This document shows positions 1 to 44,589 of a stretch of DNA of 64,000 bases, in pieces (position 1 is the stretch's first letter; each line of letters starts with the position of its first letter). The translations under genes and the position numbers were made by a program. A model generated the notes under the pieces. The model was not told where the DNA came from. It searched no databases and was given only the letters and a program-made list of their open reading frames with translations. Source of the DNA: Jaapia argillacea MUCL 33604 (Eukaryota > Basidiomycota > Agaricomycetes > Jaapiales > Jaapiaceae); NCBI GenBank assembly GCA_000697665.1, contig KL197715.1, positions 124,001 through 188,000 of the forward strand. Direction: 5' to 3'.

Positions 1-347
1 AGGCTGTCGAGCTGATTCCACAATGTGGTTGTAGACCACACACACAGTTGTTGGGAAGACGACGATCCCCTCACTACGCCGCTAAGCCATCTTTGATTAC
101 TATTGCTGTCACTGGTCGCCAATACGTTTACACTCATTAACTATGAATGATCATAAGGTCGCGATCCATCACAGGAGCACGGTGCAATTCTAGTTCCGGT
201 TACAATGTCAAACTATGGTCAATTCACGATTCCAGCACCTAGCGCCGAAGGCCCCAAAGCGCACAAGCCGGTGACCAGTCTGAACGGAGAAGACGAGGAA
301 TTGATCTTAGCACCAAGAGGGTCGAAATTGCAACCACCGAATACATT
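1..347. other. Left-edge sequence, no gene seen
   Basis: This stretch lies downstream of the SHQ1 stop codon. A serine-rich open frame on the + strand (205-540) runs across it, but that frame is antisense to the last SHQ1 exon and I do not regard it as a gene. Nothing else recognisable is present. Confidence 0.5.
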
Positions 348-2139
348 TTATAAAGGTTCAGCTGCCATGCGTTCAACTTCATCTGCAGACTCGTCGTCAC
401 TATCACTATCCCGTTCCAATTCACCCTGCACAGCCTCCTCCGATTCCTCTAAGTCCCATCCAGTGGATTCTTTGTCAAGTTTCAGAGCCCTGATACGCTC
501 TGCAAGATCTCGAAGGACGTCGTCACTAGATTCTCATTGATTTGAGTTATTTTGATTGCAGGGCAGCGTCAAAGGGACGGACGAACCTCGCATAAGCCTG
601 TACCCAGACACAAAAATCATCTGTCCACACTTTGCTGTAAACGTAGTACACCTCATGATGATCCAATATATGTTTCATTTCCAGTAAACATCGAGTGACG
701 AGACGCTTTCCCTTCGATAAAAAGTCTGCAACGTCTGTCCGACATTTTTCGGCGAGCTTCCATGAGCGGTAGAGCCCAAATGCAAGGGCACGGCGGTATA
801 CAGTGGTGAAGACAGCTGAAAGCTCAGCACAAGAGAATTCAGAGGGTGAACGTGGGAGTGGGGAGGTTGCGTAGGGAGGCGGATCAAGTGCGGAAAACGC
901 GGGTGTCAGCGAACAGATCGTCCATGCACTTTCTGGGGTGGGGTCCTGCTGAGTCGTCCGCGAGTCATACGCATACGAAAATAACAACGTGAGGAGTGTG
1001 AGGTAAAGGTTATGCGTTTGTACCGGTGTCGCGAGGTCTGAGATTACCGGCGCGGAGTTCAGAAATTTAGGCGGAAAAGTTGATGAGGTTAGCGCACGGC
1101 GTGACGATGGGCGGTCAAGTGAAATATATAGGCTGTACGGATTGACTTACATTCTTTGCGAGGAAGTCGGAGCATGGCAGCTTTCTCTTCTTCGGTATAG
1201 TTGAACGGATCTTGGGCGTCTATGAGCGCATGGGGATGTCTCCAGGCGATTAATTCCCGAATATAAGAGTCATCGGCGAAATCGGCCCTAGGTGAACCAT
1301 GCAAGTCAGATAAGCTGCGATAAAACGTTGGGGGTGTAGAGCAATGGACAGCTCACATGTAATATTCTTCGTCCCATTTCTCTTCCTCGTGCTTTAGTCG
1401 CATTTTCCTCCTTTGATCGATGGACAATGTATCAGCCAGGGAACCGAGTTCGTTCACTTCGTTTTCCGTATGTTCGACGTGAGCAAAGTAACCCGTGTAC
1501 ATGTCCAGGAATCCGTAGGGTTTCTGCAGGGACGTGTGCAACGCGGGAAGTGGGTCCGGAACCGATTGAGGTAGCTGCCAGTCGTTTTCGGCAGCTAAAG
1601 GGTAGCATGAGAGACTGTTCTTCGATGCGGAAGGGCTTGAAGGGCCTCACCTTCCAGGATCGTCTGCTGCTCCGAATCCAAGTTCAACTGGTTTGTTCTG
1701 TTTACCAAGTCTTCCTCTCCATCATCAGAGGTACTCTCTGAGTCCAGGACTTCTATCATCGGTTGAGAAGGTTGGTCTTTGCTCGGACGGGGAGCCAACA
1801 ACTTGGCCAACAAGTCCAGATCCTTGAATTCTTCTCCTTTCACTTCTTTGGTCAACGAAACTGTGAGGTATCCAGAGCTGGGATCATATTGAGCGGATGA
1901 TTTGTCGTCTTCGAGAATTCTTCCCGGAAAGTTAAGTCGAAGAAAGTAGGGGTTGATGTGGATGGTAAAGAGTGTTTCGTCAACGTTTATCTCGACGTCG
2001 GAAGCCTACTTTCTTTGGGATGAGCTCGATTTCGATAGGACGGTCGGGGTGGGGTGAGGCTTACTCTAACGGAGGGGCAGTACATTCGTACTGTGACTGA
2101 GGTGTCTGTTTGATTGCACGAAAACCGAGGTGTGATCAT
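348..2139 (-). CDS. SHQ1: Shq1, H/ACA snoRNP assembly chaperone
   Basis: Shq1 is a nuclear chaperone that holds dyskerin/Cbf5 before it enters H/ACA ribonucleoproteins, which carry out pseudouridylation and rRNA processing. The protein starts MITPRFSCNQTDTSVTVR, the hallmark start of the family's CS domain, and continues with FTIHINPYFLRLNFPG. The C-terminal helical Shq1 domain contains RRALAFGLYRSWKLAEKC and YVYSKVWTDDFCVWVQAY. Exons on the minus strand are 2065-2139, 1651-2005, 1357-1594, 1151-1314, 587-1037 and 348-525, giving 486 residues, close to the yeast protein. The last exon is an acidic tail (LERDSDSDDESADEVER). The gene is head-to-head with TRP2 across 264 bp. Confidence 0.93.
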
Positions 2140-2403
2140 ATTGGCTGATCGTGTCCAGTTATTCTACCCTAATGCAGGTGAGTTGAGGGTGGAAAGCTGG
2201 TTGGTGCACGACCTTCGGTTGGACGACTGGGGCAGATTGAGACCTGAGTGAGATTATTGAAGTCCAAGTCTAAAGAGGATCAAAATCGGATATGGGAAAG
2301 TGATCGACGTTGTCAAGATGACACCAGATCTCCTTGGACTTCATCAGATTCACCCTCAGGTGTGGCGAGTCATTCGAGTCCTTGGAGTAATATCTGCTTC
2401 CCA
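2140..2403. promoter_or_regulatory. Divergent promoter SHQ1 / TRP2
   Basis: The 264 bp between the two start codons must hold the promoters of both genes. I see no exact Gcn4-type TGACTCA site and no clear TATA box. If TRP2 instead began at the ATG at 2320, the shared region would be shorter. Confidence 0.5.
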
Positions 2404-4224
2404 ATGAATTCATCGGTCAGTCTACACACTACCACGCAAACTTTTTATTAACGTGAGACGAACGACTAGAAACTTCCAGCTTTCCCTCCTCTCGAGACGG
2501 TCGAAAAGATCATCATCAGGGAGAAACGCGGAAATTGCGTCCCTGTCTATGTCGAGTTGCCCGCAGATCTCATCACACCATGCATGGCATATTTGCGTAT
2601 AGCGAAGGACTCCAAGTACAGTTTCCTCTTGGAATCTGTCATTGGAGGGGAGTCTCTCGCCAGGTACAGTTTCATCGGTGCAGGTGTGTTCTCTCCTTCC
2701 ATTTGCCCATCTGCCCGATTCGAACAACTAAAACAATCCGGAATCCAGATCCCCTGAAGGTTATCAAGACAGGACCTAATGAAGAGATAACTGGAGACCC
2801 AATGCAAGTTCTCCAAAAAGAACTCTCCAACTACCAATACGTCAAGATTCCCGAAGTTCCGACCTTTACAGGCGGGGCAATCGGCTACGTCTCCTACGAC
2901 TGCATCCAACATTTCGAGCCGAAAACCGCACGAACCCTAACCGACCCTCTACAAATCCCCGAAGCAGTGTTCATGCTCGTCGATACACTCCTCATATACG
3001 ATCATCTCCACCAATCACTCAAGGTCGTATCCCATGTTTTCTGCCCGGGTAACACGGCTACCGTGAACTTGGCATTCATCTATTCCACTGCTGTTACGAA
3101 GGCGCGGAGGTTGGCTAGGGTGGTTCTTAGTACTGCCCTAGCAGAAGTGCCTCAGCCACCTATCAAGCTGGGTGGGGAGGCAGTTTCGAATGTGGGCAAA
3201 GAGGGATACGAGAAGTTTGTCACGAATCTCAAGGAACATATTGTCAAAGGGGATATCATCCAAGCTGTACCTTCACAACGACTTGCTCGACCCACAACCT
3301 TGCATCCTTTCAATGCGTATAGGAAGTTGAGGCAGATCAACCCGAGTCCATATATGTTCTATTTGGATTGTGGGGATTTACAGATTGTGGGCGCAAGTCC
3401 GGAGACCTTGTGTAAAGTGGAGAAGAATAAGGTGTTTAATCACGCTATCGCTGGAACTACGAAACGGGGAAAGAGTGTTGAAGGTGAGTCGTAGCCTTCC
3501 GGCGCATTCCTCGTTCGTGCCAGGACTGATGTGGGTGTAGAGGACGAGAAGTTGGGTCAAGAGTTGTTGAACTCCGAAAAGGATCGAGCGGAACATATCA
3601 TGCTGGTTGACCTGGCGAGGAATGATGTGAACCGTGTTTGCCAGCCCAAGACTGTGAAGGTGGACCATCTGATGCAGGTGGAGAAGTTTAGTCACGTTAT
3701 TCATCTGACCTCACAAGTGTCTGGGATACTTCGGGAGGGTTTGAACAGGTCTGGATTCCTCATATCACTTACCACAATATGTCGAAAATACTGACATCCT
3801 ACGATTATCTAGATTTGACGCTTTCCGGTCTATATTCCCTGCCGGAACTGTATCGGGAGCTCCGAAAATCAAAGCAATCGAGTTGATCTACTCGCAAGAG
3901 CAAGAACGTAGGGGCGTATACGCAGGCGCCGTTGGTCGATTTGACTTTGCCGACGATGAGATGGATACATGTATTGCTATCCGAACGATGGTGTTCAAGG
4001 ACGGCGTTGCGTATCTGCAGGCCGGTGGCGGGATCGTTTATGATAGTGTCGAAGAAGACGAGTATGTGGAAACTATCAATAAACTTGGTAGCAATCTCCG
4101 AACGCTTGAAGAAGCCGAGCGTGAGGCATCCCATTATTGGAGTGACAACGCATGGTCGCTGACGTTGTTGTCCATAGGTTATTGGCACGATTTCCAGAAG
4201 ACTCAACCGAGGACAGCTTATTGA
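2404..4224 (+). CDS. TRP2: Anthranilate synthase component I
   Basis: The enzyme converts chorismate to anthranilate, the first committed step of tryptophan synthesis, using ammonia from the glutamine amidotransferase subunit. The N-terminal half contains [11 protein letters not shown] and [19 protein letters not shown], which form the tryptophan-feedback region. The chorismate-binding half contains [21 protein letters not shown] split over the motif, [35 protein letters not shown] and [19 protein letters not shown]. Exons are 2404-2415, 2470-2683, 2749-3483, 3541-3748, 3813-4120 and 4178-4224, giving 507 residues, normal for the family. The 12-nt first exon is the least certain part; an alternative start at 2320 would also join in phase. 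The gene ends 73 bp from the convergent uS2m gene. Confidence 0.93.
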
Positions 4225-16140: not shown

Positions 16141-16263
16141 GTTGTCCCCCTCGGGGTGACATACGAAAACTTGGAACGATACAGAGAAGATTAGCATGGC
16201 CCCTGCACAAGGATGATACGCTTCTCCAGAGTGGAAGACCTATGGGTCTCGAAATTTATTCCT
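16141..16263 (+). ncRNA. U6 spliceosomal snRNA, copy A
   Basis: The invariant U6 core is present: AACTTGGAACGATACAGAGA, then AGATTAGCATGGCCCCTGCA and CAAGGATGA, preceded by a 5' hairpin (GTTGTCCCC / GGGGTGAC). A T-run at 16263-16266 fits a Pol III terminator, so the 3' end is approximate. The otherwise near-universal GATGACACGC reads GATGATACGC here, and the 3' region also differs from the second copy at 27816-27938. The ACAGAGA box is intact and there is no intron. Confidence 0.9.
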
Positions 16264-18068: not shown

Positions 18069-21000
18069 TCAGATATCTTCGTCCCTGTCTTCTATCTGTG
18101 AGGGCTTAAGCATCCCGGGAATTCTCATAGCTTGTTCCCGCTCAGCTTCGGCCTTCCTCTGTGTTTCAAGTTCCTTCTCCTCAAGGAAAAGATCGGCGTT
18201 ATCACCGCCCGAAAACTCCTTGAGCTGGATGAGGAAGTCACGAAGAGCCATCTTGAACCGATTGATATCCCCGTGGTTCTCGCCAAGACTGATCACAAAG
18301 GCATGCACGCGAGGACTATAACAGAACCCTGGAGTAAGCGGATGTGAAGTGAAAAGCTGCATCGAACTCACGTCGCTACATGAGGGAAGGCCGTCTTGAG
18401 CAAGTTCGCACAATATTCCCGCAAGTAGATGGAATTCGTGATGTTGGGATCTGGGACTTGTGACGGGTCAAATAAGGGCGCTTGTAGCTGGCCGATTTCA
18501 GCAAGTTGGAACATGCGTGCCAGCATCAAGCTTTGCAGCTTGAAGCCGCTCTTGTGATCGGCATCCGTCAAGACGAAGAATATATCTTGGACGATGCTGA
18601 GGAAGTATTGCTGGAAGAAGGCGCTGGATACGGCTACATCGGCACCAGCGAAGTTGTTGACAACTTCCAGGCAGACTAGGAGAGATCAACAGGTCAATGG
18701 TAATCGACAAGGTGATTGCAGATGGGCTTACGATTCAAGCCGGTATCGGCGATATCTCGCATTGTGTGCTTGATGGCCCAGATAATGCTGTCCATAAACA
18801 ACTTGAATTGTGTTGGTGGGATGGTCAGGAGGGCTGTGACGATGGGTCAGTTCGGCCAAGAAATCGGTGAAAGGGCAGGTAAAATCTTACCGGGGAAGCA
18901 GTTCAAGTTGATCGCTCTTAGAAGCTTGAAGAAGCCGGCTCTGTGTTCTGGATATTCAGAGAAGTCTTGGTTGATCATATTTAGTGTCGGCTCGAAGACT
19001 GCTTCAAGAATGGCAGGGACCTGAGGTGTGAGCAACGGCTGCCAAACCAAAACCATTCAGAAGCCCGCTCAAACTCTGAGAGCGAAGATATATACCCACC
19101 CCAAGTCGACTCGTGATAGTGGCCATCACGTTCAACACCTCTGCGTCTCTGGCAGCAGGTACATTTCGATTATAATCACCCAATATTGCGTCCAATAATG
19201 GGGGGATGAAATTGCCGTTCACGGATTCCAGGTCTTCTGCCTTTCGGATGTAAGTCTCCATCAACTTCAATATCTCCTTCTTCACGGTTCGCAACTGTCG
19301 GACTTTCGGCGTCTTGGTTGCGATTAAGCCTGACGAACAAGGTGGCAAGGGATCGGTTTGAGAAATAGAATGAGAACAACGAAGGGGAACCAATCTACTG
19401 TACCTTCACGGGCGACGGTCTCGCTGATGATACTGCTTACTGCCTTGTACAACCCAAGCATGTCCAAGAATATGCGACCAATCTGGGGTAGATAGAAGCT
19501 TCCGATGGACGTGCAAGCCGCCGTGTTGGTTTTTAAGACATTGGCCAAGATCTTGATATTGTCCATGTTGCCCAATACATCCATATTTTGAGCTGCTTGT
19601 GTCATCAGCGAATCCCACTGCAACAATAACTTAGCCGCGTCACACATATCCAGCAAAGAAATAGCGTACCGCGTTATTTGGCAACTCCATCAACTTCGCG
19701 ATCAACTTCTCCTGCTGAGGTTTGTTGGGCTGCGCAGAGATCATATATCCAACAGCTTCGTAGAATGTATGCACCTATGAAATCGAAACAAATTTTGTGG
19801 ATTGTATCAGGGGCGCTTAAGTAGAAAATGGATCATGCGTACCTGCTGAGGGGACAAGTCGACTGTGATTCGATGCAGCTGCCTCAAAATCTCGTCAACG
19901 AACGGTTCCTGTTCGCCTGACTGTTGCATAACGAAATGTCTCCGACATTTCTGAGCGATCTTGATGAACGTATCGCAAGCCATATCTTGGACACCTACAG
20001 AGATAAGCATCAGTGTCGGGAGCTCAAATTATCAATCGGCAAGGAGGAAAGTGAACCTTCGTGTGTCTCGTGCATAAACTCAAACAGCTTGTTCACCACG
20101 GTCTTCAAAAACTTCCAATGAGCCTTGAGGAAACGTGGATACTGGCCAACGATATACATGATATCGGAAGCAACGACGGCCTTGTTGTCCTTTCCTCGCT
20201 TGAGCTCGCATAAGCCGAGAAGGTCTTTGATTACGGTCACTAAGAACCGCTTCTCTGTCTCCTCGTCTACCGCGGACGCCTTTAGTTAGGAATGGGGATG
20301 GGTGAAACAAGGGGGGACATACTCATAGCGCCAGATATAGAACCAATAGCCCAACAAAGAGTATTGAGGTTGTTCCACGACCACTCCGAGCCATCCACCT
20401 GCTTAGCAAGCTTTTCGGTGAGGATAGTCTCGGTATCCACAACGTCCAAATGGGTGAGATAAACCAATAACTCGCGCATGGACTTGTACAACACAATGGT
20501 GTCGCTCTCCTTCATGAACTCTCTCACAATCTCCCCTTCGTCATTCTCCACGATCAGGACCTGCAATACGGTCAGCCCAACCTAGTCAAAATGTGAAGAG
20601 TGGAGACAAGGACACCTACTTCCTCAGGCTTAACCATCCTCTCAATAACCACCAACCTCAAATTGGACAAAACATCGGAATAGATGTTTTTCCTCAACGC
20701 CATCCCATTCAGCATATTTCCCGCACCGATTCCCCCACTTCCACTCGTGCCGCCGGGCCCACCTCCAAGACTTAACCCCATCAACAACCCACTTTCCCCG
20801 ATCGGCAAACTCTGAATCTCCTCGTACAACTCTGCCACCAACTTCAACCAATATTCCAAACAAATCTTGAAAATCTCTCTCTCGTCCACTTGACTTATCT
20901 TCACAAGGTACAAATGGGCGTTCAGCAAAACGTCGCGATTGGGTTCGGATTCGACCGCGCGGAGGTGATTGCACAGGAAGTTGCAGAGGAAGAGAGCGAG

Positions 21001-22270
21001 GTTGAGGACGAGCTCTTGGCCCGCATCTCCTGCATTAGCGTAGGCCTGGGCGATGTTGGTAGAAGGGGGGACCATACGGTTTATCGAAGTCATGACCATT
21101 GCGAAGAGAATGCCAAATTTGGGGTCGTATTCAGGGCCAACGTTCAGAGCTGCAATTTCGGCTAGACACTTGAGAGTTACATTGCGAAAATCAGGAGCTT
21201 CGAGGAACTGGTTCAACGAATCAGCGAGCTGTAAGGAAGGGAACGAAAAGGACGTACGCGATTTAACAATAAATCAATTATGGTTGTCTCAAATATATAA
21301 CCCAAAGGAATCCAATTCAGGAAGCGCAAAAGCGTCTCCAAAGTAGCCTTTATCAGACTCGTCTTCTGCGCCTCTTCCAGAATCTCTTGACACAGTTTGA
21401 AGATCTCTGAAAACTCCCCACACATTTGATTCTTGAGAGTCTTGATCTTTGCTTGTGTCATTTGTTCTGAAGAGTAATCAAACACTTCTTCCGAGAGGAG
21501 TTTGAGGATCACCATGTTATTTTCGCAGAGGGAGAGGTTCGTTTTCGAGGATTCAACTAATTCTGATATGAAGGTGGGCCAGTTGTGAGGCCATTCCTGC
21601 TTGAGGATCTAGGCAAGTTAGAACTAGGTCAGTAGATAGAAGAGCCAAAGATGATAATGTTGAACGCACCTGGACAAGAGCAAGGTTCAACTTGTTAACA
21701 TAGGTCTTTTCCTTTCGCATGGTATTCTCATCCGATGCAACCTTCACCGTGATCCCGACGACAAAGTTTCGAATGCCTGCGCACAGGATGAGTTTTCGAA
21801 TTTGATCACGAGTCATGAAGACGTACCTTGTCTCTGACCATCCGGCAGGGTCTTCCATCGCGTATTGATTAACTTCTCAAGGATCTGGAGACCAATGTAC
21901 TGGTCGTAGAGATCTGTCAGTCCAGAGGTTGCATCCAGGGCATCGGAGAACAACGAACTTTGGTTTGGGGGAACGATGCATGTTCCAAGACGTCTGGTAT
22001 TCTCGTCCATGCGTCGGGGTTTTCTTGGAACTGAGTGAGCACTTGCTGTGCCAGTTGTTGCTGTGGCAAGCCGATTCAACTCTCTGATTCGCCTTCGCAA
22101 CAAGATGTACACGCACCTCTTGTCCAGAGCCTGTGAAAAAGGCCATAACGACCTTGTCCATCAACCCGACATCGAATTCTCTCGAGAAATCCAAAATCCC
22201 CTGTTGCAGATACGTTGTCCATCAACTTTGACGGTTAGAAATGAACAAGATCAGGATCACTGACATCCAT
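18069..22270 (-). CDS. CRM1: Exportin-1 / CRM1, copy A (leptomycin-type Cys retained)
   Basis: CRM1 carries leucine-rich-NES cargoes out of the nucleus with RanGTP. The protein starts [20 protein letters not shown], with a 6-nt first exon (22265-22270), and runs through HEAT repeats including [34 protein letters not shown] and [20 protein letters not shown], to the C-terminal [18 protein letters not shown]. The NES groove reads [20 protein letters not shown]; the Cys codon is at 20208-20210 and corresponds to human Cys528, which leptomycin B alkylates. A Gly-rich insertion (about 20690-20790) is shared with copy B. I found no frame break. It lies head-to-tail with copy B, with intron positions matching wherever I compared them. 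Confidence 0.93.
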
Positions 22271-22902
22271 GATTATGGCGACAATATATGTTCGCCGCTG
22301 TGTATTATGTCGAACAGAACGACGGCGACGGCGAAGTGGATAATGTTTACAAAGTTGAGGGCACTGACTGAGGTTGTTGGGCACAGGGCGCAACGTGACC
22401 CGCAAACATTCAACTCTGCAATCGAGGGTACAAATATTTATCTAATCTCCGGCCTCCGTTTAGCATATCGGGATCACTCACTCTCCCCACGTTGCTCGGC
22501 CCTCCAACGCATCTAGCAGAAAATCTTTGAGAAATGGCTCATGATATATCATTGGCAGTACCGCAGACAGTTCTCGAGTACAGGCATTGAACCATCAAGG
22601 CAACTATATATACAAACGTAGTGAATAATACATCCAGGAAGCCGAGCGTGTTTCCCTTGTTAGAGCGGGCGACATCGTGACATTCTTGAAAACTCCAGGA
22701 CCTCCCGTAGGACGTGAATGAACCCAATTACTGAGATTTAGATTCGTGAGCGGGTACGAGCGGCTGGAATATCAGAAGAACAAGGAACAAGTTGAGCTCG
22801 ACAACGAAAGAGGATGCTTACTAGAAAAATAGCATAAATTATCAGATCCATCATCACCTTGTCTCAGGGTACGGCTGTCATACTGGCTAGATTTCCCGAG
22901 GC
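22271..22902. other. Spacer between the two CRM1 genes
   Basis: 632 bp that should contain the CRM1-A promoter and the CRM1-B 3' end. Near 22300-22400 it shares short similarity with the region upstream of CRM1-B (for example AGGGCGCAACGTGACC at 22386 and 27199), so the duplication included promoter sequence. No gene is seen. Confidence 0.45.
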
Positions 22903-25900
22903 TCAGATATCCTCGTCTCTGTCTTCTATCTGCGAGGGCTTCAGCATTCCAGGGATTCTCATAGCTTGTTCCCGCTCAGCCTCCGCCTTCCTCTGCATTT
23001 CAGTTTCTTTCTCTTCAAGGAAGAGATCAGCGTTATCGCCACCAGAGAACTCCTTGAGCTGAATAAGGAAGTCACGAAGAGCGAGCTTGAATCGGTTGAT
23101 GTCTCCGTGGTTTTCTCCAAGGCTGATGACGAAAGCTTGTATGCGGGGACTATAACGAACCAAACTCAGGACAAAGCAGATCCAAAACCAAAACGCGAAC
23201 AAGACTTACGTCGCCACATGAGGGAAGGCTGTCTTGAGTAGATTCGCACAATATTCCCGCACGAAGATGGCGTTTGTAACATTAGGATCAGGCACTTGTG
23301 ATGGGTCGAACAACGGGGCGTTTAGCTGATTAGCCTCGACAAGTTGGAACATGCGTGCCAACATCAGGCTCTGTAGCTTGAAGCCGCTCTTGTGGTCAGC
23401 GTCCGTTAAAACGAAGAAGATATCTTGAACGATGCTGAGGAAGTATTGTTGGAAGAAAGCGCTGGAGACGCCCAAATCTGCGTTTGCGAAGTTGTTCACG
23501 ACTTCCAGACACACTAGAAGAGACCCATATGTCGATAGCGGACTTCAGTGAGGCTAAGAGATTGACTCACAATTCAAACCCGTATCAGCAATATCTCTCA
23601 TCGTGTGCTTGATGGCCCATATGATACTGTCCATGAACAGTTTGAATTGAGTCGGGGGGATAGTAAGGAGGGCTACATTCCCAAGTTAGGTTGGCCAGAA
23701 TATGGAAGAGACGGGTCGAAGGATCATACCAGGGAAACAGTTTAAGTTGATGGCTCGAAGGAACTTGAAGAAGCCAACCCTGTGTTCTGGGTATTCAGAA
23801 AAGTCTTGGTTAATCATATTGAGTGTAGGCTCGAAGACCGCTTCAAGGATGGCAGGGACTTGAGGCGTAAGTAATGGCTGCGGACGCAAAATGAGAATCA
23901 TCCGAAACCTGAGAATGGATACTCACCCCGAGCCGACTCGTGATAGTAGCCATCACGTTAAGGACTTCAGCGTCCCTAGCAGCGGGAACATTTCGATTAT
24001 AATCTCCCAAGATCGCGTCCAACAATGGGGGAATGAAGTTGCCATTGACTGCTTCTAGATCCTCTGCCTTTCGGATGTAGGTCTCCATCAACTTCAGAAT
24101 CTCCTTCTTCACGGTTCGCAGCTGCCGGACTTTAGGTGTCTTAGTCGCAATCAAACCTAAGAATTAATATAGCATTCGGGTAAATAGGGGCGGAAGGACA
24201 AACAGGGAGAAGGGGCAAATTCTACCTTCACGGGCGACAGTCTCGCTGATGATACTACTGACAGCTTTGTACAACCCTAGCATATCCAAGAATATACGGC
24301 CGATTTGAGGCAGGTAGAAGCTTCCGATGGACGTGCAAGCAGCCGTGTTGGTCTTCAAAACGTTGGCGAGGATCTTGATGTTGTCCATGTTACCCAAGAC
24401 GTCCATGTTCTGAGCAGCTTGTGTCATCAGGGAGTCCCACTTTGAAAAGTTCGAACTTTATCAGTAGCGATACAGGCGAAGAACACAACGACATACGGCG
24501 TTGTTTGGTAATTCCATCAATTTGGCGATCAGTTTCTCTTGCTGAGGTTTGTTGGGCTGCGCAGAGATCATATACCCAACGGCTTCGTAGAATGTGTGAA
24601 CCTATGCATAAGTGGGCCCGATCAGATAGAGGACATACAGCGAGCAACATAGAGTTACCTGTTGGGGTGACAAATCGAGAGTGATGCTGTGCAACGACCT
24701 CAAAATCTCGTCAACGAATGGTTCCTGCTCCCCTGACTGTTGCATGACGAAATGTCTCCGACACTTCTGTGCGATCTTGATGAAGGTATCACAAGCCATG
24801 TCCTGGACACCTAGATATCAAAATTGACGTTAGACGCAACAGTGTGGTCAGGGAGGAGATCATCAAACCTTCGTGCGTCTCGTGCATGAACTCGAACAGC
24901 TTGTTGACGACCGTCTTCAAGAACTTCCAATGTGCCTTGAGGAAACGCGGGTATTGGCCCACGATGTACATGATATCGGAAGCAACAACGGCCTTGTTAT
25001 CCTTTCCTCTTTTCTGCTCTGTTAAGCCGAGGAGGTCCTTGATTACGGTCACCAGGAACCGTTTCTCCGTCTCTTCGTCTGCCAAATATGCCACCAGTTT
25101 AGAACAAGATGTAGGGAAGGGAAGGGAACGTACTCATGGCAAGAGAAATGGACCCAATAGCCCAGCAAAGGGTATTGAGGTTGTTCCATGACCACTCGGA
25201 GCCGTCCACCTGCTTGGCAAGCTTCTCAAGGAGGATAGCTTCGGTGTCAACGACGTCCAAGTGGGTGAGGTAGACCAGTAGCTCGCGCATAGACTTGTAC
25301 AATACGATGGTATCGCTCTCCTTCATAAACTCCCTCACAATCTCACCTTCCTCGTTCTCCACAATCAAAACCTGCAACACCCATGAGCATCAATCCTAAC
25401 CAAGCAAATGAAGTGAACCGTCCAAACGAGCGACACTGACCTCCTCTGGCTTAACCATTCTCTCAACGACCACCAACCTCAGATTGGACAGAACATCCGA
25501 ATATATATTCTTCCTCAACGCCATCCCATTCAACATATTCCCTGCGCCGATTCCCCCGCTTCCACTCGTGCCACCAGGCCCACCTCCAAGACTCAGTCCC
25601 ATCAATAATCCACTCTCGCCAATGGGCAAACTTTGAATCTCCTCATACAACTCAGCCACCAACTTCAACCAATACTCCAAACAAATCTTGAAAATCTCCC
25701 TCTCGTCCACCTGACTGATCTTCACCAGATATAAATGCGCGTTCAACAACACATCACGATTGGACTCTGATTCAACTGCGCGGAGATGGTTGCAGAGGAA
25801 GTTGCAGAGGAAGAGAGCGAGATTGAGGACAAGTTCCTGACCGGCGTCTCCTGCGTTTGCATAGGCTTGAGCGATGTTGGTGGAGGGGGGAACCATGCGA

Positions 25901-27092
25901 TTTATCGAAGTCATGACCATCGCGAAGAGAATGACAAATTTGGGGTCGTATTCAGGGCCAACGCTAAGAGCAGCGATCTCGGCGAGACACTTGAGCGTCA
26001 CATTGCGGAAATCAGGAGCTTCGAGGAACTAGGTGGGAGAAGTCAGACGGCAAAAATAAGTGGGGTAAGAGCGACGTACGCGAGTCAACAGTAGGTCAAT
26101 GATCGTTGTCTCAAATATGTATCCCAAGGGGATCCAGTTCAGGAACCGCAGAAGAGTCTCCAGTGTAGCCCTGATCAGACTCGTCTTCTGCGCCTCTTCC
26201 AGAATCTCTTGGCACAGTTTGAATATCTCTGAGAACTCTCCGCACATTTGGTTCTTGAGAGTTTTGATCTTTGCTTGTGTCATTTGTTCTGAAGAGTAAT
26301 CAAATACTTCTTCCGATAGGAGTTTGAGGATCACCATGTTGTTTTCGCAGAGGGATAGGTTCGTTTTCGAGGATTCAACTAGTTCTGAGATAAATGTGGG
26401 CCAGTTGTGAGGCCATTCTTGTTTGAGGATCTGGGTAAGCCAGAGCGACGTGAATACAGGAGACAATGAATACGACGGTCATAGACCCACCTGAACAAGG
26501 GCGAGATTGAGTTTGTTAACGTAGGTCTTCTCCTTACGCATTGTATTCTCATCTGAAGCAACCTTGACAGTGATCCCGACAACAAAGTTCCGGATCCCTA
26601 GATACACAATAAGATACTAACTCGGACGATCATTGATTGTCACGAACCTTGCCTCTGACCATCCGGCAACGTCTTCCAACGTGTGTTGATCAACTTCTCA
26701 AGGATCTGCAGACCGATGTACTACGAACAAAGATCAGTCAGCACAGGGTTGCATCAAACATGATAGGCGGACAGACTTTGGTCTGGGGAAAGGATGCGTG
26801 TTCCAGGATGTCCGGCACTCGCGTCCACGCGTCTGGGTTTTCTTGGAACTGGGTGAGCACTTGTTGTGCCAGTTGTTGCTGTGGCAAGTCATATGAGGTG
26901 CCCCGCTGTTGCGATTTGGGCAGAAATAAAGACGTACCTCTTGTCCAGAGCTCGTGAAGAAGGCCATAACGACCTTGTCCATTAACCCAACATCGAATTC
27001 TCTCGAGAAATCCAGAATCCCCTAGAAGAAACGCGCTGTTCATCAACGTCCACGACCATCGAAGACAAGGAATCGATCCCACTGACATCCAT
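22903..27092 (-). CDS. CRM1: Exportin-1 / CRM1, copy B (Thr at the leptomycin site)
   Basis: This is a complete second exportin-1 with the same 6-nt first exon (27087-27092) and the same C-terminal residues [18 protein letters not shown] as copy A. By eye, roughly 30-40 residues differ over about 1,070, many conservative. The NES-groove helix reads [20 protein letters not shown]: the Cys of copy A is replaced by Thr (codon ACA at 25020-25022) and the residue two further on is Gln instead of Leu. Budding yeast Crm1 also has Thr (Thr539) here and is naturally insensitive to leptomycin B. The other groove residues I checked (Ile, Lys, Leu, two Lys, Ala, Met, Phe) are unchanged. I found no frame break, so it should encode a working exportin. 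Confidence 0.93.
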
Positions 27093-27815
27093 GGTTACAA
27101 GTAAATTTCTGTTCGCAGCAGGTCGAGGGGAATGAGGAGGAGGATGAGGACGACGAGAGTTACGAGATGAGGGCGCTGACTGAGGACTGAGGTTGGGCAC
27201 AGGGCGCAACGTGACCACAAACCTTCAACACCGCAAAGGCCTCCAACGTCATCTAATCTCCGACTCATTTGATCGGCGAAGGTTTATCTGCATTCGCTGG
27301 CTTGAACCCGCATCTACTAGCATCTACTACCTTCGGGGGGATGACATTGGTAGCTCCAGCCATCGTTGAAGCGCCCCCCTTCTCTAGCTCGTACACCAGG
27401 ACACCATTTTATGCGATCTCTCGATCGAGAGGACTCTGAACCTTTTTTCCTGGCAGGGTGCAGCGTCGAGTACTTTTATTCAGTAGGTTTTTACCACTAT
27501 TCGTCTCCAACTCATCTGGTTTCCAGCTTGCTGCCCAACCCTCGTACATGTATCCCAAGTTGGCTACCAGGATTCCATTCTGGGGAATTGTGGCGGATGG
27601 CAGGTCTATGTCGCGATGCTTACTTCGTTCTCTAGCTCAAAACTAAGGATTGAGTTGTAAACATATCCACAGAGTGGCCCGGGAGGTCTGTGAGTCAAAG
27701 GCTAAGATCCCTATCAGTTAGAGCCGACTGTAGTGCCATCCTTTGGATATAAACATGACTGCAATGCCAGAGAGTTCGTCCTGTGATAGTGTACCCCGAA
27801 GCGCACAAGAAAAAA
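27093..27815. other. CRM1-B upstream region
   Basis: About 720 bp between the CRM1-B start and the 3' end of U6 copy B. It holds the CRM1-B promoter, part of which resembles the sequence upstream of CRM1-A. I see no gene. Confidence 0.4.
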
Positions 27816-27938
27816 GTGCATAAATCTTGAGACCCGTAGGTCATCCACTCTGGAGAAGCGTGTCATCCTTGTGCAGGGGCCATGCTAATCTTCTCTGTAT
27901 CGTTCCAAGTTTTCGTATGTCACCCCGAAGGGGACAAG
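27816..27938 (-). ncRNA. U6 spliceosomal snRNA, copy B
   Basis: Read on the minus strand, the same 5' hairpin (TTGTCCCC / GGGGTGAC) and U6 core appear, with AACGATACAGAGAAGATTAG and CCCCTGCACAAGGATGACAC, here with the canonical GATGACACGC. A run of six T (27810-27815) supplies the Pol III terminator. It lies in the opposite orientation to copy A, about 11.7 kb away, so the pair forms an inverted repeat around TMA20 and the CRM1 genes. Ends are accurate to a few bases. Confidence 0.9.
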
Positions 27939-28152: not shown

Positions 28153-29476
28153 ATGCCATCGAATATCCCTGGCGTCCAACAAGCATGGCGGGCCGTTGGT
28201 AGAGGTACCCCGTCTGAGGCTCTCAGATTTGAGACGAACGTACCCGTCCCTCGTGAACTTGGTGAAGGCGAAGTCTTGGTGAAGATTCACGCAGCCTCTA
28301 TCAGTCAAGCGTACGCCCCCGTATCATCTCTGCTCGACTCTCCGTTCTGACCTTTCTACAGAGGATGGAAGATAATGAGATGGATGCCTTGGATATTCAT
28401 TCAAAGACCCTACACACCAGAATTCGATTTTGCAGGTGTCGTTGTCGATCACAACAATACGCACTTCTCGGTCGGTGATAAGGTGTTTGGTACTGATGAC
28501 AACCGTCAGTGTCTATCGCTCTTTCCCAGTCTCAACCTTCATTGACCAATTATTCTAGTGCCAACAAGTTCGTTACACCAAGGTACTCTAGCCCAGTACA
28601 TCCGTATTCCAGCTTCAAAAGTCCTTCCCCTCCCATCAGACACCACCCCTTCCCAAGCTTCTGGTATTCCTGGCTCAGCACTGACGGCTTACCGAGGCCT
28701 CTTCGAAGTCGGTGGTCTCGAAGCGGGTCAGAGCGTCTTTATAAATGGGGGAAGTTCAAGTGTAGGGATATTTGCGATCCAATTGGCAAAAGCCAAAGGA
28801 TGTAGAGTTGTCGCCAGTGCTAGTGGGAAGAATGAAGAGTTAGTTCGCAGTCTGGGTGCAGACGACGTGAGCGGGCTTGCCGTTCGACTAGTTTCAAAAT
28901 ATTGACATCGATCCCGAGTTCATTGACTATACTCTCGCCCCTTTGTCCCAAACACTTTCCTCTAATCCGCAATATCCCAAATTCAACCTTATTTTGGACG
29001 CAGTTGGCCTCGTCGACCCATCCCTTTATACCTCATGTGAAGCCTATCTTGCACCAAACGGGATCTTTGTCTCAACAGGTCCACAACCCCAAGTTTGGGG
29101 CGAAGTGTTGACAGTGTTCAAGTTGTTTTGGAACGTGTCGATGAGGCCGACTTGGTTGGGTGGTGTCCGACGGAAGTGGACGTGAGTTTCGAGTCGTCGT
29201 ACTCTGGTATCATATTCTGATGGATCATACTACAGATTCTACTCGACGGGCCTCAAGCCAGAAGTCCTTGAGACGATCACTCAACTTGTTTCGGACGGTA
29301 TGCTGTTTTCTCAAATTTCTCAGATTGAAACTCACCGTCATCCCGCCATAGGCAAGGTCAAGCCCATTGTTGACTCCGTTTATCCGTTCGAGGACGTTGT
29401 CAATGCCTATGAGCACCTCATGACATATCGAGCTGGAGGGAAGGTGATTGTTATGGTTGATCGCGAGGCGAATTAG
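28153..29476 (+). CDS. MDR-family NAD(P)H reductase, zinc-free quinone oxidoreductase type
   Basis: A medium-chain dehydrogenase/reductase without the catalytic zinc ligands of alcohol dehydrogenases. The N-terminal GroES-like half shows GEGEVLVKIHAASISQAGWK and FDFAGVVVDHNN; the Rossmann half shows INGGSSSVGIFAIQLAKAKG followed by NLILDAVG and GGKVIVMVDREAN. Six exons (28153-28310, 28362-28504, 28559-28866, 28919-29181, 29236-29297, 29352-29476) give 352 residues. It most resembles fungal zeta-crystallin/RTN4IP1-like reductases; the substrate cannot be told from sequence. It starts 214 bp from the U6-B gene. Confidence 0.85.
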
Positions 29477-43917: not shown

Positions 43918-44589
43918 TCATGCAAATAGGTCGAACTCAAGAATGCGCAAAGATATTGCAGCGACATCGAAGTCCTTCTTAACCTTCAAGAACTCTTCCT
44001 CTCCAACCGCCCCGCTATCAACTGCTTTCACGGGGACATTCCAGGTGAGCACGAGATCAACACCCTTGTCCTTCACCCTGTAAAGAGCGAGCAAAATCCG
44101 AACTTCGTCCGGAATAGTGTGATTGAATTTCGGTATGAATTGGGTGCCAGAGAGGACGATAGGCGACGGCGTGTCGTCACCGCGGTCATTTGGTATGATG
44201 ATGATCCCGTGCACCTCGTTGGATGAGGCCGCATTATCGGTAGCTAGTGAGTCGAAATGAAATCTGAACCCAGATCACATATTCGTCAACGGACTGGCTC
44301 AGACTGGATCTTGATTTTCAACCACTAACCTTGCGGCGCTCAGAGGGTCGGCCTCGTCAACCCCTTGGAGGATCTCGACTATGATGCTGACGCTGGAAGA
44401 GCGATATAGAAATACTTCCTGCGAGTCAGGAACTTCGCGGATATCTCTAACATGGCAAGAATATCACATCAGCAACCATCGTGGTCTCCTCAGACGGAGA
44501 GGATAGCCATGAAGAACCTACGACGCATCGAGGAGATCAGTTGGAAAATCGGCGATGATAGCGCCTCCAAAGAGGGGTTTGGGTGGCAT
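43918..44589 (-). CDS. MOG1: Mog1, Ran-binding nuclear import factor
   Basis: Mog1 binds Ran/Gsp1 and promotes nucleotide release during nuclear import. The start MPPKPLFGGAIIADFPTDLL matches the family's LFGGAI start, followed by DIREVPDSQEVFLYRSS, the defining REVPDxQEV motif, and IIVEILQGVD. The C-terminal exon ends ISLRILEFDLFA, like the yeast VDTSLFA end. Three or four exons are needed; the 3' exon 43918-44214 is certain. The length is near 200 residues, as expected. It shares the window, though not a promoter, with two exportins. Confidence 0.88.

Follow-up and report, generated by a model that had tools for sequence, protein, structure and literature searches.

Two intact genes for exportin-1 (CRM1/XPO1) that differ at the residue attacked by leptomycin lie side by side in the genome of the fungus Jaapia argillacea MUCL 33604. 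They were found in a stretch of 64,000 nucleotides (GenBank assembly GCA_000697665.1, contig KL197715.1, positions 124,001 to 188,000 of the forward strand), here called the window, to which all coordinates refer. The genes are arranged in tandem, head to tail and both on the minus strand; copy A has Cys536 and copy B Thr536 at the position of human Cys528. The CRM1 receptor is essential, and both leptomycin and selinexor-type drugs act on it. The likeliest account, with a probability of roughly 0.6, is an old duplication that left two working exportins, most likely kept by dosage and a partial division of labor.

We reconstructed the splicing of both genes with the alignment of one copy to the other as a guide, and the donor of copy A intron 2 was set to match that of copy B. 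The coordinates that a first-pass annotation had assigned to two intact CRM1 genes in head-to-tail order proved exact (Table 1). Each copy contains 16 introns of 49-74 nt, with positions and phases matching between the copies. Pfam was run on 10 exon stretches, four from copy A and six from copy B, with CRM1_repeat_3 tried on copy B alone. Exons of both copies passed the cut-off for Xpo1, CRM1_repeat, CRM1_repeat_2 and CRM1_C, while one match to mTOR_dom in exportin exons fell under the cut-off and was disregarded. With copy B as the query, exportin-1 chains of solved structures were matched over residues 13-1083. Across the pair, 15 families of direct repeats, with two copies each at a spacing of 4811-4839 bp, indicated a likeness far above chance. 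Thus, both copies are full-length exportin-1 with the Xpo1 domain, the CRM1 repeats and CRM1_C.

The coding sequences (CDS) of the two copies are 85.6% identical, and 37 of the 1086 residues differ (96.6% protein identity). The first-pass description of the genes as nearly identical hence applies to the proteins but not to the DNA. By the Nei-Gojobori method we obtained a nonsynonymous divergence (dN) of 0.021 and a synonymous divergence (dS) of 1.156 (dN/dS 0.018), and 194 of 410 fourfold sites (47%) differed. A dS of 1.16 together with a dN/dS of 0.018 indicates that the duplication is old and under strong purifying selection, and that the copies are not an allele pair. Purifying selection on the Thr copy had been named beforehand as support for the first-pass interpretation, and the constraint between the copies is strong.

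For comparison with other exportins we used chains from the Protein Data Bank, which we take to represent Chaetomium thermophilum (4fgv), mouse and human (3gjx and 3gb8) and budding yeast (5xoj). The identities of copies A and B were 62.0 and 61.8% to the Chaetomium protein (over 956 aligned residues), 57.2% each to the mouse protein and 53.1% each to budding yeast Crm1. When the 37 differing sites were polarized against these outgroups, 11 changes were assigned to each side and 15 sites remained unpolarized. A six-row tree, which included an exportin-1-like sequence from a bacterial bin (L001, see below), joined copies A and B with support of 91/88 and gave them tip lengths of 0.015 and 0.018, respectively. 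Chaetomium and yeast were grouped at 98/98, apart from the window copies, and L001 formed a long branch.

The similarity of the copies extends upstream of the coding region. Local alignment of the upstream regions scored 66.5, compared to a maximum of 30.5 in 300 shuffles. A 24-nt block upstream of each start codon is identical in the two copies; with up to 3 mismatches allowed, the window contains no match to it besides these two, and 100 shuffles gave none. In contrast, the downstream flanks of A and B showed no similarity (score 12 versus a shuffle mean of 16.8). Because about half of the fourfold sites have changed, the block is probably a retained control element, and its retention suggests that both copies are expressed. 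Their equal distance from the outgroups and the shared block make both copies look functional.

We analyzed the leptomycin site and its surroundings codon by codon. The Cys and Thr codons were confirmed in the sequence where the first-pass annotation had placed them, and they differ at all three bases. Among 27 positions in the region of the cleft that binds the nuclear export signal (NES), taken in human numbering, the copies differ at 528 and 530 only. Residue 538 (human 530) is Leu in copy A and Gln in copy B, so that the earlier statement that the other groove residues are unchanged does not hold for 530. The cleft is conserved, with 23 of the 27 positions identical across A, B, Chaetomium, mouse and yeast. 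Between residues 500 and 624 the copies differ only at 514, 536 and 538, and both have Lys at human 522, 534, 537 and 568. By its sequence, copy A, with Cys536 and nearby basic residues, would belong to the leptomycin-sensitive exportins, and copy B, with Thr536 and thus no Cys at human 528, to the insensitive ones.

The residue at this site varies among exportins. Chaetomium has Thr, as in copy B, where copy A has Cys, and budding yeast Crm1 also has Thr. The mouse and human proteins share Cys with copy A, but two residues on they have Gln like copy B; no Thr version was present among the mouse and human letters compared. Budding yeast chains with Cys at the site, such as 4gmx, are presumably engineered. 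Aspergillus is said to have Thr at the site (crmA T525C); a literature search turned up no paper on this. A search for exportin-1 gave no match in viral contigs and a single one, L001 (positions 1-3270), in genome contigs. An exportin-1-like protein is encoded on this contig, which has 26% GC, was binned as Clostridiales bacterium UBA7001 and is apparently eukaryotic contamination of the bacterial bin. The protein is 44% identical in its best segment, has Cys at the site and is of odd composition.

The direction of the change was assessed by counting ancestral states by hand. Fission yeast lies at the base of the ascomycetes, and the fungus of the window was set outside them, a placement that we inferred. 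When the Cys of fission yeast (C529, according to passages of PMC6008054) was counted, a Cys ancestor required two changes and a Thr ancestor three; the two tied at two changes when fission yeast was left out. Thr in copy B is mildly favored as the derived state.

The differences between the copies cluster most densely elsewhere in the protein. Residues 914-1056 hold 16 of the 37 (p 0.001 in a 143-residue scan; p 0.0005 in a 60-residue scan). Where mouse and yeast have different residues, 12 of 110 sites are changed between the copies from residue 900 on, versus 16 of 430 before (Fisher p 0.006); where mouse and yeast share the residue, the counts are 4 of 65 versus 5 of 436. The C-terminal repeat region takes part in cleft regulation. 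The cluster in these repeats points to a wider divergence of the copies, and the drug residue is therefore not the sole candidate for functional divergence. Synonymous difference was lower in codons 1-300 (96 of 278 codons) than elsewhere (303 of 723; Fisher p 0.037). Scans for low synonymous difference gave p 0.029 for 40 codons and p 0.026 for 80 codons, the latter locating a local low at codons 124-208, but were not significant for 120 (p 0.457) and 200 codons (p 0.134). This is no more than a hint that old gene conversion took place toward the 5' end of the pair.

What the two residues may mean for drug response can be judged from work on yeasts. Cys528 lies in the middle of the NES cleft, where leptomycin is anchored by Michael addition and lactone hydrolysis (passages of PMC4588050). 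Fission yeast with Cys529Ser is resistant to leptomycin, and budding yeast is insensitive, having no Cys there (passages of PMC7221118), in agreement with the first-pass annotation, which had cited budding yeast as Thr-bearing and resistant. Selection on leptomycin yielded the fission yeast substitutions C529A, S, T and V, each of them viable; three of these resisted high concentrations of the drug, the passages leaving unspecified which three (PMC6008054). From these results in fission and budding yeast, copy A should be alkylated by leptomycin and copy B spared. According to the same passages, C529A keeps the docking of the cleft ligand Mto1 at pores, whereas S, T and V lose it (PMC6008054); the residue therefore matters beyond the drug. 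The effect on Mto1 may be one reason why a Cys copy has been retained alongside a Thr copy.

The neighborhood of the pair was surveyed for biosynthetic genes. We searched 40 of the 55 stop-to-stop open reading frames (ORFs) of at least 150 aa in the window against Pfam; two more of the 55 are CRM1 exons. In addition, frames with stops written as X were scanned at 27.9-37.8 and 39.0-48.9 kb on both strands, at 48.7-58.6 kb on the minus strand and at 8.0-17.9 kb on the plus strand. Fifteen of the 40 ORFs had a match and 25 had none. The identified neighbors are mostly housekeeping genes: SHQ1, anthranilate synthase component I, ribosomal S2, HSP70, replication factor C, CAF-1 subunit A, a pre-PUA protein, a zinc-binding dehydrogenase, TPR/APC3, a TCP-1 chaperonin, Mog1, TrkH, mitochondrial L31, CMS1 and a Surp/PRP21-like splicing factor. 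The scanned ORFs and frame stretches contained no polyketide, peptide-synthetase, terpene, P450 or other cluster domain, and in these parts of the window the second exportin copy thus lies neither in nor beside a biosynthetic cluster. The zinc-binding dehydrogenase (ADH_N and ADH_zinc_N_2, 28261-29452, plus strand) runs away from copy B, with a U6 spliceosomal RNA gene between them. A Mog1 domain (44032-44451, minus strand, E 1e-25), which is Ran-interacting, shares the window with the two Ran-dependent exportins, probably by coincidence. The exportin pair and the pre-PUA gene lie between two U6 genes of opposite orientation. These U6 genes resemble each other over an inverted repeat of 128 nt, which contains the 105-nt gene itself plus some 20 bases flanking it, and they are therefore not part of the exportin duplication.

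Table 1. Exportin-1 pair and associated features in the window.
Feature	Coordinates	Strand	Description	Basis
Exportin-1 (CRM1) copy A	18069..22270	minus	Cys536; 17 exons, 16 introns, 1086 aa	Splice reconstruction; Pfam on 4 exon stretches
Exportin-1 copy B	22903..27092	minus	Thr536; 17 exons, 16 introns, 1086 aa	Splice reconstruction; Pfam on 6 exon stretches; solved-structure matches
TGC codon, copy A	20208..20210	minus (plus strand gca)	Cys536, equal to human Cys528, leptomycin-reactive	Sequence, alignment
ACA codon, copy B	25020..25022	minus (plus strand tgt)	Thr536	Sequence, alignment
24-nt upstream block, copy A	22377..22400	minus	107 bp before ATG; identical to copy B block	
24-nt upstream block, copy B	27193..27216	minus	101 bp before ATG; identical to copy A block	
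U6 spliceosomal RNA gene	16144..16248	plus	Left of pair	Rfam RF00026, 80.5 bits
U6 spliceosomal RNA gene	27831..27935	minus	Right of pair	Rfam RF00026, 82.2 bits

We propose that an old tandem duplication of exportin-1 gave rise to two working Ran-dependent export receptors, both of which would be expressed and carry NES cargo. Copy A would be open to alkylation at Cys536 by leptomycin-type Michael acceptors; copy B would not, because Thr has no thiol, and a cell expressing copy B would keep exporting despite cysteine-reactive poisons. The pair would most likely have been kept through dosage and a partial division of labor, the latter because the differences cluster in the C-terminal repeats. 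Drug insensitivity would come with copy B, though it is no proven reason why that copy was retained. Several points weigh against this account. The constraint on the copies does not reveal the cargo of each, and the evidence is the sequence of one strain set against distant outgroups. Residues at the 37 sites come from three outgroups only, with the Chaetomium letters stopping before the last nine, and the boundary at residue 900 was picked after the data were seen. Moreover, the account understates drug exposure if that exposure fixed copy B. A more far-reaching version is a two-receptor system, in which the Thr536 copy is poison-proof, its twin keeps Cys536 for cleft ligands that require it, as Mto1 docking does in fission yeast, and the C-terminal repeats divide cargo or release behavior. 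We consider it improbable as a whole; if true, the cell would be poison-tolerant without losing Cys-dependent functions.

Two alternatives concern the cause of the Cys/Thr change; they overlap with the account of dosage and divided labor, and the odds do not sum to one. The change may reflect neutral or compensated toggling, the link to the drug being a coincidence with a well-studied variable site. This is a possibility of some weight, though we lean against it. Chaetomium, mouse and yeast have T, C and T at the site, position 538 has also changed, and of the 28 differing sites with letters from all three outgroups, 23, including 536, vary among the outgroups. However, the surroundings of the site are almost frozen, and at least two amino-acid-changing steps would have occurred in one codon of a gene with such a low dN. 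Alternatively, cysteine-reactive CRM1 poisons of soil bacteria may have favored Thr in one duplicate, with Cys kept in the other for cleft functions, a scenario we regard as unlikely. The changed residue is the leptomycin target, the shortest codon paths from Cys to Thr go via Ser, a state reported as resistant in fission yeast, and a Cys ancestor is the more economical one when fission yeast is counted. The loss of Mto1 docking in C529T (passages of PMC6008054) would explain the retained Cys copy. On the other hand, the ancestral states tie once fission yeast is omitted, and the site is one of 37 differences whose densest cluster lies elsewhere. Fungi vary here, with Thr in budding yeast and Chaetomium and Cys in fission yeast, and therefore no drug is needed for the swap.

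The first-pass annotation had seen in the pair the pattern expected of target-duplication self-resistance, or of exposure to a CRM1 inhibitor from a neighbor. Under self-resistance, the fungus itself would produce such an inhibitor and be protected by copy B. Genome mining does use as a signature a duplicated and resistant homologue of an essential gene that lies within a biosynthetic cluster (passages of PMC10320164), and near the pair there is a zinc-binding dehydrogenase. No polyketide, peptide-synthetase, terpene or P450 domain accompanies it in the scanned stretches, as the same annotation had noted for clusters in general, the neighbors are mostly housekeeping genes, and the pair is old with both copies evenly constrained. 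What held of that interpretation is the intact Cys/Thr pair, the purifying selection, the even rates, the shared upstream block and the leptomycin insensitivity expected of Thr; self-resistance found no support and appears very improbable. Still harder to credit is an assembly artefact, in which two alleles or haplotypes of a single gene were placed one after the other. Heterozygous assemblies can yield tandem near-copies, but here dS exceeds 1, nearly half of the fourfold sites differ and the downstream flanks are unrelated.

The pair can be set beside two known systems. Like the fungal target-duplication self-resistance genes (passages of PMC10320164), it comprises a duplicated essential gene with a resistance-type residue; unlike them, it has no biosynthetic cluster in view nearby, and both copies are old and evenly constrained. 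A literature search gave, in titles or abstract openings among the matches listed, no fungus with adjoining Cys and Thr exportin-1 genes. A natural pair that brings Cys and Thr at the drug-reactive residue together within a single genome would offer a direct test of the cysteine's role, because drug-proof changes are viable in fission yeast, yet three of four cost a cleft interaction. The pair would also bear on why fungi differ, with Cys or Thr, at the leptomycin site. The fission yeast mutant C529T has the same state as copy B but is an engineered single gene, whereas the window holds both states as natural paralogues.

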